From: Halomonas sp. KAO
Lineage (GTDB): Bacteria; Pseudomonadota; Gammaproteobacteria; Pseudomonadales; Halomonadaceae
Assembly: GCF_015595025.1 (NCBI RefSeq)
Contig: NZ_JADNRL010000024.1
Location: 43,499-107,498, forward strand
Length of the DNA: 64,000 nt
Reading direction: 5' to 3'
The notes under the pieces were generated by a model that was given only the letters and a program-made list of their open reading frames with translations, did not search any database and was not told the origin of the DNA. The translations under genes and the position numbers were made by a program. Every line of letters begins with the position of its first letter. Positions within the stretch are counted from its first letter, which is position 1. Shown piece after piece: positions 10,103-59,966 of the stretch.

Positions 10103-11982
10103 CAAACCGCATCGGAAAACCCAATACAGCAACCGACATGGCACTTCACGAGCGGCTTGCGGGTGACAGCAATCGGCATTTCGTGATGGTTGCGGGGGCC
10201 GGTTCGGGAAAGACAACATCGCTGGTTAAAGCCCTTGCTCAGATCGAGTGTACTCAAGGTCCTTCCCTCCGCCGAAAAGGGCAACAAGTCGCTTGTATAA
10301 CCTATACCGAAGTGGCCGTAGATGAAATTCGCGGTGACGTCGGGAACGACGAACTATTCCACATCTCCACAATCCACAGCTTTCTCTGGACACTCATCAA
10401 GCCGTTTCAAAACAATCTCCAGGAATGGGTCAGTAACCGGTTGCAGGAGAAGATTGCCGAAGAGCAAGAGAAGATCGACAAACCGCGTACGAGAGAAGCC
10501 ACGAAAATTCGTGCAGCAGAACTCATCGAGCGCTATAGGCGTCAGCTTACAGAGATCAGTTCTGTAAAAAGTTTCCGGTACGGGACTGGTAGCGACTATT
10601 CAAATGGTGTTCTAGGTCACAGCGATATCCTGAAGATAGGACCCGAGTTTATTGCAGGTCATGCACTGATGCAGGCCGTTTTGGCACGGCGCTTTCCGGT
10701 CATCTTTGTCGATGAAAGTCAGGACACTGATCCGGCTTTTGTGGATTCCCTTGTCCAAGTGGCACGTGCTTTTCCGTTAGGTTTTTGCCTTGGTTTCTTC
10801 GGCGATCCCGTGCAAAAGATTTACATGCAAGGTGCTGGTTCCATTCCGGCCGAAGAGGGATGGGAAACGCTGGAGAAGCCCGAGAATTTCAGATGCCCTA
10901 AAGCAGTGCTCCGCGTCATCAACCGAATCAGGGCAGAAGATGACCGGCTTGAGCAAACGCGAGGACGCCGCATTTCGGTGGGCGATGGAGATGTTTCCGT
11001 CGAAGGATCTGCCAGAGTATTGATACTACCTGCCGATGATCTGCGACACGAGCGGCTGCAGGAAGCACGTCGCTGGCTGTCCGACCAGGATGGTGATGAT
11101 GGCTGGCTGAAGGAAGATGACGAGGAAGCGCTGCGGCTCCTAGTGTTGGTCCATCGGATGGCGTCAACCCGGCTAGGTTTTCCGAACCTCTATAGTGCCC
11201 TCAATGACAAATCTCCGGAAGAGCTCAGCACCGGCTTGATTGACGGAACGGCATGGGTAGTGCGTCCCCTCCTATCTTACATCTTGCCATTGGTCCTTGC
11301 GCGGCACGAAGGGCGGGAATTCGAGATCATGCGCCTGCTTCGGAAACATTGCCCTCGCTTACAGCCCGATGCTCTGGCCGCTGTTGACACTGCGGGACTG
11401 CTGAATGGTCTGCGAGAACAGCTCGGCGGGCTGGTGGCAATGTTAGAAGCCGATAGCGGCATGCGCATCGGTGATGTCATGCGATTAATTAGAGATAGCA
11501 ATTTGGCAGCGCTCGATGAGCGTTACATTGAGCTGATCAATATCTACGCTGAATCACCTGAAACGGTTCCCGATCCGGCGACAGACAATGCTGCGCTTCG
11601 TTTCATGCAATGTGACGTTTCTGAGCTGTGGGGTTACCGTAAATATATCGAGAAGATGTCTCCCTTTTCAACTCAGCAAGGCATCAAGGGAGCCGAATTC
11701 GATAAGGTTATCGTTGTAGTTGACGATCAGGAGGGGCGAACAAATACGTTCTCCTACGGCAAGTATTTCGGCGTAACGGAACTTTCAGATACAGATTACG
11801 CGAACATTGCTTCCGGTAAAGACTCTGTCATCGATCGAACCCGGCGCTTATTCTATGTTTGCTGCTCGCGGGCACTGTCCGACCTTGCCGTAGTGGTATT
11901 TACCGATGACACAGCACGGATGCGTGACGTATTGCTCAAGAGGGAATTCTTTGATCCCGAATGCGTCCAAGTCTTAGACTAA
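10099..11982 (+). CDS. gajB: Gabija anti-phage protein GajB (UvrD-like SF1 helicase)
   Basis: SF1A helicase-like protein of 627 residues. Walker A is AGAGSGKTTS at residues 32-41, motif II is VDESQDTDP with Asp at residue 205, a PCRA/UvrD-like motif III (GFFGDPVQKIY) follows, and the C-terminal motifs include SPFSTQQGIKGAEFDKVIVV (motif V region) and RRLFYVCCSRAL (motif VI). GajB associates with GajA in the Gabija complex. It starts 4 bases before the gajA stop, so the two are translationally coupled. Downstream is a strong hairpin. Typical GajB is about 500 residues, so this one is somewhat long, as is its GajA partner. Confidence 0.85.
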   Translation: MTNRIGKPNTATDMALHERLAGDSNRHFVMVAGAGSGKTTSLVKALAQIECTQGPSLRRKGQQVACITYTEVAVDEIRGDVGNDELFHISTIHSFLWTLIKPFQNNLQEWVSNRLQEKIAEEQEKIDKPRTREATKIRAAELIERYRRQLTEISSVKSFRYGTGSDYSNGVLGHSDILKIGPEFIAGHALMQAVLARRFPVIFVDESQDTDPAFVDSLVQVARAFPLGFCLGFFGDPVQKIYMQGAGSIPAEEGWETLEKPENFRCPKAVLRVINRIRAEDDRLEQTRGRRISVGDGDVSVEGSARVLILPADDLRHERLQEARRWLSDQDGDDGWLKEDDEEALRLLVLVHRMASTRLGFPNLYSALNDKSPEELSTGLIDGTAWVVRPLLSYILPLVLARHEGREFEIMRLLRKHCPRLQPDALAAVDTAGLLNGLREQLGGLVAMLEADSGMRIGDVMRLIRDSNLAALDERYIELINIYAESPETVPDPATDNAALRFMQCDVSELWGYRKYIEKMSPFSTQQGIKGAEFDKVIVVVDDQEGRTNTFSYGKYFGVTELSDTDYANIASGKDSVIDRTRRLFYVCCSRALSDLAVVVFTDDTARMRDVLLKREFFDPECVQVLD

Positions 11983-21074: not shown

Positions 21075-21272
21075 ATGCTCATCCTGACCCGCCGTGTCGG
21101 CGAGACCCTGATGATCGGTGATGACATCACCGTGACGGTGCTGGGCGTGAAGGGTAACCAGGTCCGTATCGGTGTGAATGCACCCAAGGATGTGGCAGTC
21201 CATCGCGAGGAGATCTACCAGCGCATTCAGCGTGAGAGGAGCGACGAGGAAGGCTCTGACCACGAGGTGTAG
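21075..21272 (+). CDS. csrA: Carbon storage regulator CsrA
   Basis: RNA-binding dimer of 65 residues that binds GGA motifs in leaders of mRNAs and alters translation and stability. ATG 21075 is preceded by AGAAGGAGA and starts [17 protein letters not shown], the canonical CsrA N-terminus; [21 protein letters not shown] follows. The C-terminal tail is short and acidic. It lies in the usual place between lysC and the tRNA-Ser/tRNA-Arg cluster. Its own activity may be set by small RNAs; a candidate RNA with GGA-loop hairpins is at 52660-53141. Confidence 0.97.
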
Positions 21273-51043: not shown

Positions 51044-52357
51044 TTGGATAAACGCTTCCCCTTCGTCGACTGGTTTCGCAACTCCTCGCCCTATATCAAT
51101 GCTCATCGCGGACGAACCTTCGTCATTCTGATCGAAGGCGAGGCGATGGCGCGGGGGCGTGGCGAGCAGTTGATCCAGGATCTGGCGCTACTGCATACCC
51201 TGGGGGTACGGCTGGTGGTGGTGTTCGGCATTCGGCCTCAGGTACGCCAGGCCCTGGATGCGGCAGGGATCACGCCAGGGCAGCATCAGGGGCGCTGGGT
51301 TGCCGATGGAGAGGTGATGGCCTGCATCGAGCGAGTGGCCGCCGAGCAGCTGCTGTGGCTGGAGGCGCGCTTCTCGCTGGGCCTGCCCAATACGCCGATG
51401 CATGGTGTGGAACTCTCCGCGATCTCGGGCAACCTGGTGATGGCCAAGCCGCTCGGGGTGCGGGAGGGAGTCGACTTCGATCATAGCGGGGAGGTGCGCC
51501 GGGTGCGTACCCAGGCCATCGAGGGGCTGCTGGAGCAGGGCGCTCTGGTGGTGCTGCCACCACTGGGCTTCTCCAGCACCGGAGAGGTCTTCGACCTCGA
51601 CGCCTCGGATGTGGCCCAGCATGCCGCCATGGCGCTGTCGGCCGACAAGCTGATCCTGCTCGGCGAGGCCAGCGGCCTCTGCGATGCCAGTGGCCAGCTG
51701 CAGCGTCAGCTGACGCCCGCCGAGGCCGGGCCGCTGCTGAGTCAGGCAACCCCCGGCAGCGAGCTCGCCCGTCATCTGGAGGCCGCCTGTCAGGCCGCCC
51801 GCCACGGGGTGGCGCGTACCCACCTGCTCTCTTGGCATGACCATGACGCCCTGCTTGGCGAGCTCTTCACCCGCGACGGGGTCGGCACCATGATCACCCG
51901 GCATCGTTACGAGCAGCTGCGTTCGGCGGAGCTGGCGGATATCGGTGGCCTGCTGGAGCTGCTCGAACCGCTGGAGCAGCGCCGCATGCTGGTGCCCCGC
52001 TCCCGGGAGCGGCTGGAGCACGAGATCGACGATTATCTGGTGATCGAGCGCGACGGCATGATCATCGGTTGTGCCGCCCTGCATCGGTTCGATGATGCCG
52101 AGATGGGCGAGCTGGCCTGCGTGGCGGTTCACGATGACTATCGTGGCGGTGCTCGCGGCGAGCTGCTGCTGGCCGAGCTCGAGCGGCGTGCCAGGCGGCA
52201 GGGCCTGTCGGCGCTGTTTGCCCTCAGCACCCACACCACCCACTGGTTCTTCGAGCACGGCTTTCGTCTGGCCGATCTCGAGGCGCTGCCACCGCTGCGC
52301 CGGGACACCTATAACCACGCCCGCAAGTCCAAGGTGCTGGTCAAGTCTCTCGGCTGA
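51044..52357 (+). CDS. argA: N-acetylglutamate synthase ArgA
   Basis: Catalyses the first step of arginine synthesis. 437 residues from TTG 51044 (CGGAGAG 8-10 bases upstream); the open frame extends upstream without homology. The N-terminal amino-acid-kinase domain (about 15-280, arginine-binding, without kinase activity) has FVILIEGEAMA and LLHTLGVRLVVVFGIRPQV; the C-terminal GNAT domain (about 290-437) has YLVIERDGMIIGCAAL and THTTHWFFEHGF. Feedback inhibition by arginine is expected. A long gene-free stretch follows. Confidence 0.92.
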   Translation: MDKRFPFVDWFRNSSPYINAHRGRTFVILIEGEAMARGRGEQLIQDLALLHTLGVRLVVVFGIRPQVRQALDAAGITPGQHQGRWVADGEVMACIERVAAEQLLWLEARFSLGLPNTPMHGVELSAISGNLVMAKPLGVREGVDFDHSGEVRRVRTQAIEGLLEQGALVVLPPLGFSSTGEVFDLDASDVAQHAAMALSADKLILLGEASGLCDASGQLQRQLTPAEAGPLLSQATPGSELARHLEAACQAARHGVARTHLLSWHDHDALLGELFTRDGVGTMITRHRYEQLRSAELADIGGLLELLEPLEQRRMLVPRSRERLEHEIDDYLVIERDGMIIGCAALHRFDDAEMGELACVAVHDDYRGGARGELLLAELERRARRQGLSALFALSTHTTHWFFEHGFRLADLEALPPLRRDTYNHARKSKVLVKSLG

Positions 52358-52632
52358 GCATGCCGACGTGTTATCGCAACGATCTCGCCTGCCATTCGAC
52401 ATGGTGTGGCAAGCCGTGCCCTGTCGCCGGGAGCTGTCATCGCCTGTGCAGCTGTCGCGACTTGGCGACTCTCTAAGCTATTGATAAGAATGGTTGTTTA
52501 GAGATCTTCTCCGCCTGTGTCTTTTTCTTGCGACATAACTCCGGTCGCAAGCCACCCCGTCACCCGGATTGGAGCACATCTTGAGCATAGGGTGATTTGT
52601 AAGTAGTTGAGTTAATGGTGTTTATTTGTTTC
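52358..52632 (+). promoter_or_regulatory. Upstream regulatory region with two GlrR-type sites
   Basis: No gene is seen here. Two copies of the GlrR recognition pattern TGTC-N10-GACA occur: 52453-52470 (TGTC-N10-GACT) and 52518-52535 (TGTC-N10-GACA, perfect). They are roughly 100 and 165 bases upstream of the sigma-54 promoter at 52633, a usual distance for enhancer-binding proteins. The segment 52600-52632 is AT-rich and could bend, but I could not find a clear IHF site. TGTAAG at 52598 is a half-site of the GacA box without its partner. Confidence 0.6.
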
Positions 52633-52648
52633 TGGCACGCTGTTCGCA
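52633..52648 (+). promoter_or_regulatory. Sigma-54 promoter of the RNA upstream of glrK
   Basis: TGGCACGCTGTTCGCA fits the RpoN consensus TGGCACG-N4-TTGCA with one mismatch (second T of TTGCA is C); GG and GC are at the required spacing. Predicted transcription start is about 52659. No protein start follows in a suitable place. Confidence 0.7.
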
Positions 52649-52658
52649 ACATGTGAAG

Positions 52659-53141
52659 TGAGCGACGGGAGTGGTTCATTACGGCTCGAACCATTTCGAT
52701 CGTGACGGAGGCGGAACGACACTGCCCTGTGCCTCGCCTCCAAAGCGATCAGCGTCTGCTCCTAGCGATGTGTGACTTAGGTTGCGATGAGACGGGTACC
52801 GACATGCTCAGGGATGCGTACCCAAGGGCAAGGATGCCCCGGCATGGATGCCTCTCTCCCCCCTTGCGGGGGATGGAATTGCGCGGTGGCGCCATGGCAC
52901 GAATGGTTTCGACCAGGCCGGGCGACACTGCCAGAAACGAGGCGGGATGGTTGGTCTTCGACGACCTGCCGTCCACATGAGGAGGGCCAGCCCCTGGTGG
53001 CAGATGGCTCGCTCATGGCTTCGAGGGCCTTCCCCGGCCCGTTTGGAAGGGTGGGCGTTGGCTGGACCAGGCTGCCATCGGTGATCCTTCCAGACCCTTC
53101 AGTTCCCTGCGTATTGGGCCGGCTCTGCCGGCCTTTTTTTT
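52659..53141 (+). ncRNA. Candidate sigma-54-dependent small RNA in the glmY position (upstream of glrK)
   Basis: About 480 bases between a sigma-54 promoter and a strong terminator, with no credible protein gene. The transcript would be highly structured: TGGTTC/GAACCA, GGAGGCG (52707-52713) with CGCCTCC (52735-52741), GGGTAC/GTACCC (52794-52823), and the tight hairpins GGGCA-AGGA-TGCCC (52826-52839) and GGCA-TGGA-TGCC (52841-52852), whose loops present GGA. In E. coli the sRNA glmY lies at this place and is activated by GlrR with sigma-54. No primary sequence similarity to GlmY was seen. The 92-codon frame at 52702 has no family resemblance. Function open: mRNA regulation or CsrA binding. 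Confidence 0.55.
53117..53141 (+). terminator. Intrinsic terminator of the RNA upstream of glrK
   Basis: GGCCGGC (53117-53123) pairs with GCCGGCC (53127-53133), followed by eight T. Strong and unrelated to any protein gene on the plus strand. Confidence 0.92.
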
Positions 53142-53207: not shown

Positions 53208-54752
53208 ATGATGGCAACCCCATCCGCCACCCCGCCCCCTGGTTATCTGCGAAGAACGCTGGACATGGTCACCCGAGTCGCCCGTCGCTGGCGCCCCCGC
53301 TCCCTGCTGCAGCTCGTGCTGATCGCCTTCGTGGTGGTGATGCTGCCGTTGGGCGTGCTGATGTTCCAGGCGGGCCAGGCCCTCTCCGAGCTTACCCGGC
53401 TGGCCGACGTCAGCGCCCGCCAGGCGGTAGAGGAGACGCGGCGCGCCCGGACCCTGGGGGTGTTGGCCCTGGAGATGGAGCGTAGTGCACGGCAGTATGC
53501 CGTCCTGGAGCAGGAGAGCCTGCTGGAGATCTATGCCGCCCGGCTCGAGGAGTATCGCCAACTGCTGGGTCGGCAGCGAGAGCTGCTGCCGGAGGCTCCT
53601 GCCGTGGAGGCGCTGGAGGCGCTTCTCGAACGCCTGAGTGATCTGCCCGGCCTGGAGCTGGCGGCGTTCAAGGAGCGGCTCGACGCCTTCCCGGCACTCG
53701 CCGAGCATACCGAAGCGCTGCGCCAGGCCACCAATCAGCGCATCGATACGCGCATCGATGCCATCCGTGAGGGGGCACGAGGGGTGCAGAGGCAGTTGTG
53801 GTGGCAGACCGGGGCCCTGGTGTCGGCCAGCCTGGTGCTGATGTTGTTGTTCTCATGGCTGATCATTCGTCCGGTGCGTCAGCTGGAACGCCGTATCCTG
53901 GGTATTGGCAGTGGCTCCCGCGAGGCACCACCCCGCCCGGTACAGGGGCCCGCCGAGTTGATTCAGCTGGATGAGCGCCTCGACTGGCTCGCCTCGCGTC
54001 TCGATGAGGTGGAGGTCGAGAAGCAGCGCTTCCTGCGCCATATGTCCCACGAGCTCAAGACCCCGCTGGCCAGCGTGCGTGAAGGGTCGGCGCTGCTGGG
54101 CGACGGGGTGGCCGGCGAGCTGACCCCGCAGCAGCAGGAGATTCTCGAGCTGATCGATGGTAGCGGCCGCGAGCTGCAGCGGTTGATCGAGCAGCTGCTC
54201 GACTACAACCTGCTGCAGCAGAACCGCCGGGTGAAGGTCGAGCGGATCGACGTTGCCACCCTGCTGCACGAGGTGCTGGCCAAACACCGTCTGGCGTTGT
54301 CCAACAAGGGAATGCGGGTCGAGGGCTTCGATGGCCCGGTGGTGTGGCCACTGGATCGTGCCGCGACCGGGCATATCCTCGATAACCTGGTCTCCAATGC
54401 CATCGCCTATGGTGAGGAGGGAGGGGTGCTGGAGATCCGTGCTCGGCAGCGCCGAGATCGCCTTGAGCTGGAGGTGGCCAACAGCGGCGAACCCATTGCC
54501 GAGGCGGATCGCCCGCGGTTGTTCGAGGCCTTCTATCAGGGCAGCACGCGTCGCAAGGGGCCGCTCAAGGGTTCCGGCATCGGGCTCTCGGTAGCGGCGG
54601 ACTGCGCCCGCCTGCAGCAGGGCGAGCTGGCCCTGGTGACAGATCCCCGCCTGGCGGTCTGCTTCCGCCTGACGCTGCCGCACACGGCCCCCTCGAGGGT
54701 TGAAACTACTGACATGCCTGCCGAGTTGGCAGACCCGCAAGCAAGGAGCTGA
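53208..54752 (+). CDS. glrK: Sensor histidine kinase GlrK/QseE
   Basis: 514 residues with two membrane helices (about 37-58 and 205-225) around a periplasmic helical sensor domain, a HAMP-like segment, and the kinase core: H-box RFLRHMSHELKTPLASVREG with phospho-acceptor His281, N-box DNLVSNAIAYG, G-box KGSGIGLSVA. Order and neighbours (lipoprotein, then a sigma-54 response regulator) match E. coli glrK-qseG-glrR, which senses envelope conditions. A separate promoter is likely between the terminator at 53141 and ATG 53208. Confidence 0.9.
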   Translation: MMATPSATPPPGYLRRTLDMVTRVARRWRPRSLLQLVLIAFVVVMLPLGVLMFQAGQALSELTRLADVSARQAVEETRRARTLGVLALEMERSARQYAVLEQESLLEIYAARLEEYRQLLGRQRELLPEAPAVEALEALLERLSDLPGLELAAFKERLDAFPALAEHTEALRQATNQRIDTRIDAIREGARGVQRQLWWQTGALVSASLVLMLLFSWLIIRPVRQLERRILGIGSGSREAPPRPVQGPAELIQLDERLDWLASRLDEVEVEKQRFLRHMSHELKTPLASVREGSALLGDGVAGELTPQQQEILELIDGSGRELQRLIEQLLDYNLLQQNRRVKVERIDVATLLHEVLAKHRLALSNKGMRVEGFDGPVVWPLDRAATGHILDNLVSNAIAYGEEGGVLEIRARQRRDRLELEVANSGEPIAEADRPRLFEAFYQGSTRRKGPLKGSGIGLSVAADCARLQQGELALVTDPRLAVCFRLTLPHTAPSRVETTDMPAELADPQARS

Positions 54753-54756
54753 TGTG

Positions 54757-55326
54757 ATGACGCTGCGTCCCCTGTTGGCCAGTCTACTGGCCATCTGGCT
54801 GGTCGGTTGCGAGATTCTGCCGCGGGGGCTGATGGAGCACTCCACCGAGCCGGCCAGCGTCGTGGAGTCTGTTGCCCACTGCGGGGCCGAACTGCCGAGC
54901 TTCACCGATGAGGCGTGCCTGCTGCGGGAGTGGGTCGACTTCGGGCTGGCGTCGCAGCGCGGTGATCGCGCCTGGCGTGATGCCATGCTCAAGCGCCTGG
55001 AAGGGGAGGAGGCAGAGCGACGCCTGGCTCGCGCCGTGGCACTCTCATGGGGGAACCACCGGCAGTGGGGGCTCGCCTCGGAGCTTTACAAGGCCGACCT
55101 GAGTGCCGCGCCTGTGACCCTGCAGCCGCTGCTGCGCTACTGGCTCAACGAGCTGGAGCGTCGCCGCGCCATGCTCGGGCGACTGAATGCCGCGCGCTCC
55201 TCCCAGGTGGATAGCGAGGCCCGTATCACCGCCCTGGAGGGGGAGAAGGCCGCCCTGACGGAGAAGCTCGAGGCGCTGACCGCCATCGAGCGAAGTATCA
55301 ACCTGCGACAGCAGAACGAAGAGTGA
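54757..55326 (+). CDS. QseG-like outer-membrane lipoprotein
   Basis: 189 residues from ATG 54757. The signal peptide ends in the lipobox LVGC (Cys at about residue 18), so it is a lipoprotein; Lgt and Lsp would process it. The mature part is helical with a C-terminal coiled coil (about 145-185). In enterobacteria QseG bridges GlrK and the envelope. Sequence conservation within the family is low, so the assignment rests mainly on position between glrK and glrR and on the lipobox. Confidence 0.8.
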   Translation: MTLRPLLASLLAIWLVGCEILPRGLMEHSTEPASVVESVAHCGAELPSFTDEACLLREWVDFGLASQRGDRAWRDAMLKRLEGEEAERRLARAVALSWGNHRQWGLASELYKADLSAAPVTLQPLLRYWLNELERRRAMLGRLNAARSSQVDSEARITALEGEKAALTEKLEALTAIERSINLRQQNEE

Positions 55327-55339
55327 TGGAGGCCTCGAT

Positions 55340-56755
<1,416 letters not shown>

Positions 56756-59768: not shown

Positions 59769-59966
59769 TTACAACCCGCGAGCCCAGTCGTCGGCCTGGC
59801 GTTCTGCCTCTTCGCGCTCCAGGCCATAGCGCTGCTGCAGCTTGCCTACCAGTTGGTCACGCTTGCCGGCCACCTGATCGAGTTCATCGTCACTCAACTC
59901 TCCCCAGCTGGCACGCGCCTTGCCTTTGTACTCTTTCCACTTGCCTTCGATCTGGTCCCAGTTCAT
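59769..59966 (-). CDS. CsbD family stress protein
   Basis: 65 residues beginning MNWDQIEGKWKEYKGKARASWG, the CsbD signature, then LSDDELDQVAGKRDQLVGKLQQRYG. General stress protein of unknown mechanism, often salt- or osmotically induced. Leads toward the PRC-barrel gene. Confidence 0.93.
   Translation of the reverse strand: MNWDQIEGKWKEYKGKARASWGELSDDELDQVAGKRDQLVGKLQQRYGLEREEAERQADDWARGL

Follow-up and report, generated by a model that had tools for sequence, protein, structure and literature searches.

In the place of glmY, many Halomonadaceae apparently carry an undescribed RNA whose loops look built to catch CsrA

Many salt-loving Halomonadaceae apparently carry, in the place of GlmY and behind switch DNA of the GlmY type, another, undescribed regulatory RNA, and its conserved loops seem shaped for the capture of CsrA, a global regulator. 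The RNA was analyzed in a stretch of 64,000 nucleotides from Halomonas sp. KAO (the window) and in its relatives. It is apparently a real, structured small RNA, widespread in the GlrKR-carrying members of the family, and our best reading is that it titrates CsrA in part. It is probable that the RNA is switched by GlrKR and sigma-54 and captures CsrA, and that its 3′ strand pairs with mRNAs or with a second partner.

The non-coding interval between argA and glrK-qseG-glrR (53208-56755) holds a predicted RNA gene of ~480 nt (52659-53141; Table 1). The sequence-only reading of this DNA had proposed a GlmY-like arrangement, in which two GlrR sites, an RpoN promoter with one mismatch and a strong terminator surround ~480 bases without a protein gene. 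Each of these elements was recovered: the GlrR-type site at 52518 is exact and that at 52453 has one mismatch, the promoter was present at 52633-52648, and the terminator was found at 53116-53141. The place is likewise that of glmY, since the order in E. coli K-12 is glmY-glrK-qseG-glrR and sites of the same types lie upstream of glmY. The GlrR product scored over the cut-off of its model (794.9 bits vs 763). The QseG-like protein matched PF13942 with an E of 0.0005 and 20.5 bits, below the Pfam cut-off of 27 bits, and among the best 25 of 63 matches listed no NCBIfam model exceeded its cut-off for the glrK product.

Table 1. Positions of the features discussed, in window coordinates.
Feature	Position	Strand	Basis or remark
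csrA	21075-21272	+	single match to csrA genome-wide; encodes the proposed ligand
argA	about 51044-52357		exceeds the cut-off of amino-acid N-acetyltransferase models
GlrR-type site, distal, TGTCGCGACTTGGCGACT	52453-52470	+	TGTC-N10-GACT, one mismatch
GlrR-type site, proximal, TGTCTTTTTCTTGCGACA	52518-52535	+	TGTC-N10-GACA, exact
IHF-like site, TAAGTAGTTGAGT	52600-52612	.	one mismatch
Sigma-54 promoter, TGGCACGCTGTTCGCA	52633-52648	+	one mismatch
Small RNA gene (predicted)	52659-53141	+	start inferred from promoter, end from terminator; conserved upstream of glrK
Conserved 5′ block, two GCGATG copies	52750-52793	+	many invariant columns in 61 sequences
Hairpin 1, GGTAC/GTACC and inner helix	52795-52822	+	stem exchanges A-U/G-C/U-A and C-G/A-U
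CsrA-type hairpin 2, GGGC-AAGGAT-GCCC	52826-52839	+	conserved loop
CsrA-type hairpin 3, GGC-ATGGAT-GCC	52841-52852	+	conserved loop
3′ domain helix, CGAGGC (52938-52943) with GCTTCG (53018-53023)	52938-53023	+	97.9% paired, 40 rows
Pseudoknot or kissing pairs, CCTGGT (52993-52998) with ACCAGG (53066-53071)	52993-53071	+	covariation
3′ block, CTTCAGTTCCCTGCGTA, candidate pairing region	53097-53113	+	near-invariant
Intrinsic terminator	53116-53141	+	sequence, alignment
glrK, sensor kinase	53208-54752	+	HisKA and HATPase_c (Pfam); gene order as in E. coli
qseG-like lipoprotein gene	54760-55326	+	PF13942 match and position
glrR, sigma-54 activator	55340-56755	+	NCBI model NF011695 GlrR

The published QseF (GlrR) consensus is TGTCN10GACA in the accessible text of the source (PMC8745638). 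With up to one mismatch, this pattern had 20 matches in the window vs 20.3 expected, the proximal site being the only exact one, and the sigma-54 pattern had 4 matches vs 1.9 expected. At these frequencies, which are close to chance, it is conservation alone that gives the GlrR and sigma-54 sites meaning. Other sigma-54-like matches in the window, all on the + strand, are an exact one at 59909-59923 and a pair with one mismatch each, 78 bases apart, at 10682-10696 and 10760-10774.

Conservation of the switch DNA was scored in 61 aligned sequences, i.e., the window and 60 loci, with L004 excluded. The sigma-54 element, TGGCA[CT][GA]-N4-TNGC[AT], was at the expected place in 59/61. A shorter 5′ part of the RNA accounts for the more upstream position of the element in L032 (TGGCATGCCTATCGCA) and L036 (TGGCATGCCTGTCGCA). 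Exact TGTC-N10-GACA was found in 20/61 upstream regions, vs 0-1/61 for eight other spacings and 0-2/61 for six control words; when one mismatch was allowed, these values rose to 56/61, 3-26/61 and 1-11/61, respectively, and the higher control counts probably reflect relatedness. Between dyads and promoter lies an IHF-like site. It was present with up to one mismatch in 46/61 upstream regions (6.4 expected) and exactly in 17/61 (0.35 expected), both expectations being taken from mononucleotide shuffles. The proposal that GlrKR control is conserved in Halomonadaceae stood for the close relatives, in which sites and promoter are kept rather than lost, and fell short elsewhere. Five of the 61 sequences (L016, a Halomonas anticariensis strain, L021, L027, L032 and L036) have no dyad at up to one mismatch, and in four GlrK-bearing genera (L119, L120, L122 and L123) the patterns used detected no promoter, 3′ block or tandem hairpins in the 1.5 kb upstream. 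We regard it as nearly certain, judging from this anatomy, that an RNA gene under GlrR/sigma-54 control lies at this locus.

The predicted RNA folds better than its shuffles (z -3.2; 1/100 shuffles). It is hardly credible that the interval is conserved, non-transcribed DNA or hides a small protein gene. Frames open for as many as 125 aa do fall wholly or almost wholly within the RNA, and four of them, when searched in translation, matched 17-45 of the 61 loci, but 5-18 of the matches per frame contain stops, either the start or the reading frame fails to be conserved, and the stems carry the compensatory changes described below. When compared with 60 relatives, the start of a 92-aa frame was aligned with a start codon in 3/60, and a 125-aa frame kept its start in 60/60, yet was free of internal stops in only 16/60. 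No Pfam match was obtained for the two + strand frames tested. No conserved translated frame was found among the frames compared, in line with the view that the ~480 bases hold no protein gene.

The core of the RNA (52750-52883) has three ANGGA motifs, two of them in tandem hairpins with ANGGAN hexaloops. In the 61-row core alignment, the A and the GGA of the loops of hairpins 2 and 3 are invariant (61/61), the second loop base varies among A, C and T, and the sixth varies among all four bases in hairpin 2 and among A, C and T in hairpin 3. ANGGAN site 1 (52810-52815), on the 3′ side of hairpin 1, shows the same pattern with all four bases at N, the motif being shifted by gap placement in L047 and L051. 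At least three ANGGA motifs were present in the core of every row, and the whole RNA has 4 ANGGA (median, range 3-7) and 8 GGA. The sequence-only reading had suggested aligning this interval across Halomonadaceae in search of covarying stems, and compensatory changes were indeed found: 98.9% of the cells in the core stems are paired, 34 cells have both sides changed (61 rows), and the covariation score was reached by 0/500 shuffles. Of the five measures, that of further pair types was the weakest, with 16/500 shuffles reaching it. The stem of hairpin 3 did not vary in the 61 rows, and hence is uninformative by itself.

Divergent genera rebuild the stems of both hairpins around the same loops. 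Other stems carry them in L105 (CCAGGC-AAGGAC-GCCTGG and TGGGC-ATGGAT-GCCCA), L116 (CGGC-AAGGAT-GCCG and CTCTCCC-ATGGAT-GGGAGAG) and L106 (AGGC-AAGGAT-GCCT and TGGC-ATGGAC-GCCA); L117 and L118 have GGC-ATGGAC-GTC and CTCTCCC-ATGGAT-GGGAGAG, and L114 has GGT-AAGGAT-ACC and GGC-ATGGAA-GCC. Two ANGGAN hairpins within 40 nt were detected at 59/61 GlrK loci, and elsewhere such pairs numbered at most 3 in 1.376 million positions (both strands counted). Both misses are explained, as the contig of L004 starts inside the RNA and the pair of L010 lies outside the slice, though both hairpins are present there. Within the window, the core pair is the only ANGGAN hairpin pair with stems of at least 3 bp.

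The CsrA of this genome has 48 of its first 52 residues as in Salmonella CsrA. According to the accessible part of the NMR work on RsmE (PMC7652899), the protein recognizes an ANGGAN hexaloop in which A and GGA are contacted and N is variable. RsmN binds the RsmZ-2 hairpin in the text available from PMC3791407, and the loop of that hairpin, AAGGAU, is the loop of hairpin 2 in the Halomonas RNA. The likeness makes it very likely that the RNA binds CsrA. CsrA has been reported to bridge sites 10-63 nt apart, best above 18 nt; the GGA-to-GGA gaps in the core are 17 and 11 nt, inside this range and below its optimum. Accessible accounts give 22 GGA for CsrB and 14 for CsrC, vs 8 in the Halomonas RNA, and with so few ANGGA and GGA per RNA titration may be weak. 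We lean towards CsrA titration as a main physiological effect of the RNA.

The 3′ domain was aligned in 40 of the 61 sequences, the 21 others being near-duplicates or of odd length. Supported by this alignment are the terminator, a variable hairpin and two helices, CGAAGC/GCTTCG and the crossing CCTGGN/NCCAGG. Pairing in the latter reaches 98.3%, with both sides changed in 27 cells, in two pairs; one of these variable pairs occurs as G-C, G-U, A-U, U-A and U-G, and the other as U-A, C-G, A-U and U-G. It may be a kissing interaction, with each strand in a hairpin loop, as judged by eye in rows such as L037. For the whole 3′ structure 97.5% of the cells are paired, vs 93.1% in shuffles (0/500) and at most 49.3% when slid, and further pair types were reached by 52/500 shuffles. 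The 3′ block, CTTCAGTTCCCTGCGTA, stands directly before the terminator and is exact in 59/61 (not in L010 and L027), and its inner GTTCCCTGCG is present in 61/61. Such conservation far exceeds the needs of a linker, and we incline to the view, drawn from the alignment, that the block serves extra base-pairing or meets a partner.

Could the 3′ block be the main active part, with CsrA binding only stabilizing or tuning a base-pairing RNA, as with McaS? The block is the most widely shared part of the RNA, being kept, if shortened, in a paralogue (L107) and also in forms that have no hairpin pair, and the available parts of published work report that McaS and GadY, both base-pairing RNAs of E. coli, bind and antagonize CsrA; in the Halomonas RNA base-pairing is a candidate activity only. 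A search for the complement of the block in its own genome, with up to 3 mismatches over 17 nt, gave 3 sites besides itself vs 6 for a reversed-pattern control, i.e., no extended complement beyond control, and the target search found none. We presume that McaS and GadY differ from the Halomonas RNA in sequence, location and control. A base-pairing RNA of this kind is a rather unlikely alternative. In L134 a complement of the block lies next to where a gene encoded on the other strand begins, by eye one for a penicillin-binding protein; this site was taken as chance.

The GlrK scan gave at least 64 loci, of which L001-L061 are from Halomonadaceae, with 58-96% GlrK identity; L062-L064 were dropped as unrelated kinases (24-28% identity). 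Among the matches listed, all 61 Halomonadaceae loci have the RNA upstream of glrK (the L004 contig begins inside it). Blastn matches to the RNA were obtained in 107 of 151 genomes of the family, some of them confined to its 3′ end, and a covariance model detected the core in 37 of 40 chosen genomes (none in G015, G022 and G031). Four genomes have no clear GlrK orthologue, namely G010 and G033 (genus g11), G004 (g5) and G024 (g24), and blastn found no match to the RNA in any of them.

Three genomes of one genus (G019, G091 and G104) carry two full copies of the RNA, and a fourth (G038) gave a partial second covariance-model hit. The genus is inferred to be Modicisalibacter, since the G104 coordinates coincide with L024 (Modicisalibacter coralii). 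The G091 paralogue (L107) lies away from glrK, next to ureG. It has a terminator and a sigma-54 promoter of its own, an TGTCGCCATTAAGAGACG dyad and the 5′ block, along with two ANGGAN hairpins and a shorter 3′ block. The G019 paralogue (L108), also away from glrK, has the 5′ block and the hairpins; a sigma-54 match and the 3′ block were not found in the stretch scanned. These copies bear on the possibility that the RNA is a long leader of the glrK operon, acting as an attenuator or in autoregulation and having no role in trans. Its promoter does point at glrK, which begins 66 nt beyond the terminator, and the accessible account of Proteus mirabilis, with glmY and qseEGF in one transcript, offers a parallel. 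The strong conserved terminator before glrK argues against it, as do the paralogue with its own promoter beside ureG and the second copies in G019 and G104, and we find a pure leader very improbable.

Arrangements other than the full RNA were also observed. In L109 (1582-2510) a tandem precedes glrK, each of its two units with a sigma-54 promoter, a 3′ block and a terminator, and the second RNA has the 3′ block and one GGAC-GGAT-GTCC hairpin in place of an ANGGAN pair. L121 holds a form of ~150 nt consisting of sigma-54 promoter, 3′ block and terminator only, and L104 the 3′ block alone, with no ANGGAN hairpin or sigma-54 match by the patterns used. As short forms keep the 3′ block without the hairpin pair, CsrA binding is probably not the only function of the RNA. 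L027 matches the 3′ end of the RNA twice.

Like GlmY of Enterobacterales, the Halomonas RNA is non-coding and lies upstream of glrK-qseG-glrR, and by eye E. coli glmY is likewise preceded by two TGTC-N10-GACA sites and TTGGCACAGTTACTGCA. The Halomonas RNA is about 480 nt long vs 184 nt for GlmY, and neither its CsrA-type hairpins nor its 3′ block were seen by eye in the E. coli glmY sequence. The Rfam scan gave no family at threshold, GlmY/GlmZ and CsrB included, and at relaxed E nine weak below-threshold hits to other families, several of them on the terminator. No GlmZ-family match appeared even at E up to 10. The earlier failure to see similarity to GlmY is borne out by the covariance scan, and the RNA appears unrelated to GlmY by any test made.

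It is quite improbable that the RNA is nevertheless a functional GlmY analogue, a RapZ decoy or competing RNA that tunes glmS and has diverged beyond recognition. Place and control are those of glmY, a rapZ-like gene is present in the genome, and AGCGATGTGTG is common to the 5′ block and the glmS start, with a chance roughly estimated at about 1 in 10; on the other side stand the lack of a GlmZ-family match at E up to 10 and a pairing of the blocks with the glmS start that is no better than in shuffles. GlmZ-like control of glmS was rejected, as duplexes with the glmS start were at least as low in energy in 68/200 shuffles for the 3′ block and in 197/200 for the 5′ block. The shared AGCGATGTGTG (window 52764-52774) is identical in sense to the glmS start region (AGCGATGTGTGGAATC, L136).

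We return to the reading we favor, a GlrKR-switched RNA that captures CsrA. From the anatomy of the locus we infer a chain from GlrK signal through GlrR, sigma-54 and the RNA to CsrA. An envelope signal would be sensed by GlrK, with QseG, leading to phosphorylation of GlrR; GlrR would bind the upstream dyads while IHF bends the DNA, and the sigma-54 polymerase would make the ~480-nt RNA ending at 53141. The three ANGGA sites of the core, two of them in hexaloop hairpins, would then capture CsrA dimers, so that CsrA-repressed mRNAs are released in vivo, and the near-invariant strand after the folded 3′ domain would probably pair with mRNAs or meet a second partner. It is possible, at somewhat less than an even chance, that in Halomonadaceae GlrKR has been rewired from the GlmY/amino-sugar circuit to the Csr regulon, an unrelated modular RNA having come to stand behind the same sigma-54 switch. 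The modules would be a CsrA-capturing head, a kissing-loop body and a near-invariant pairing tail, and their separate loss or duplication would have given full paralogues and tail-only short forms.

If this is true, a Csr antagonist is under a sigma-54 two-component system instead of GacS/GacA, one conserved input (GlrKR/sigma-54) drives unrelated RNAs in two bacterial groups, and envelope sensing is linked to the control that Csr exerts over metabolism, biofilm and motility. The bacteria concerned are used for PHA and ectoine production, and relatives that can be cultured allow the short conserved motifs to be altered singly. For Halomonas anticariensis the table of a review lists, in its accessible part, GacS-GacA, [CsrA] and an sRNA given as 'Unknown' (PMC7366521); L016 is this species, under the newer name Litchfieldella, and it carries the glrK-linked RNA, a concrete candidate for the CsrA-antagonizing RNA so listed. 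The open PMC library, which leaves out most subscription papers, yielded no description, in PMC12889724, PMC7366521 and PMC13414033 or elsewhere in the records searched, of a CsrA-antagonizing or glrK-linked RNA of Halomonas.

Other Csr and decoy RNAs offer partial parallels. RNAs of the CsrB/RsmZ type likewise present ANGGA(N) motifs in hairpin loops, whereas the Halomonas RNA has a sigma-54/GlrR-type promoter, few sites, a structured 3′ domain and the 3′ block. CrcZ of Pseudomonas is a decoy under the control of a sigma-54 activator whose gene is its neighbor, an arrangement like that proposed for the Halomonas RNA, and presumably differs from the latter in motifs and sequence. Its target is Hfq in the available text of PMC4063720, vs the proposed CsrA. 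With a head like a CsrA decoy and control like that of GlmY, the Halomonas RNA would belong to neither family by the tests made.

In the own genome of the RNA, an exact GacA box was absent and the sole site with one mismatch lies elsewhere, and no GacA-driven Rsm RNA was found. Exact GacA boxes were present in 24 of 61 family genomes (56 boxes in sum), and 44 loci were examined further. Among the matches listed, Csr-like hairpins were most evident in genus g11 (L213, L214, L215, L234 and L236), and L222 and L223 (g7) had two each. GacA-driven Csr RNAs may exist in other Halomonadaceae, and hence the glrK-linked RNA need not be the only antagonist of the family. In the g11 loci an exact GacA box is followed by ANGGAN hairpins, e.g., GAGGC-AAGGAT-GCTTC, and they are candidate classical Rsm RNAs; in this genus two genomes searched had no clear GlrK and four had no blastn match to the Halomonas RNA.

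Outside the family, 341 genomes of the order gave no convincing match under strict filters with few candidates scored per genome. This search was blank for G015, G036 and G050 despite their blastn matches, and so was not exhaustive. Two of the 341 genomes (G156 and G367, E about 0.009) were taken as chance, since neither has the 5′ or the 3′ block. No match to the RNA was found in the phage and plasmid collections, and GlrK relatives at class level (L141-L169, the best 29 of 43 places outside the genome of the window) had no tandem ANGGAN pair upstream. In L147 (480-1060), from another family, two sigma-54 promoters were seen by eye upstream of the GlrK relative. Downstream of each stands a CAGGATG motif that could form part of a hairpin, and the second runs on into a small open frame.
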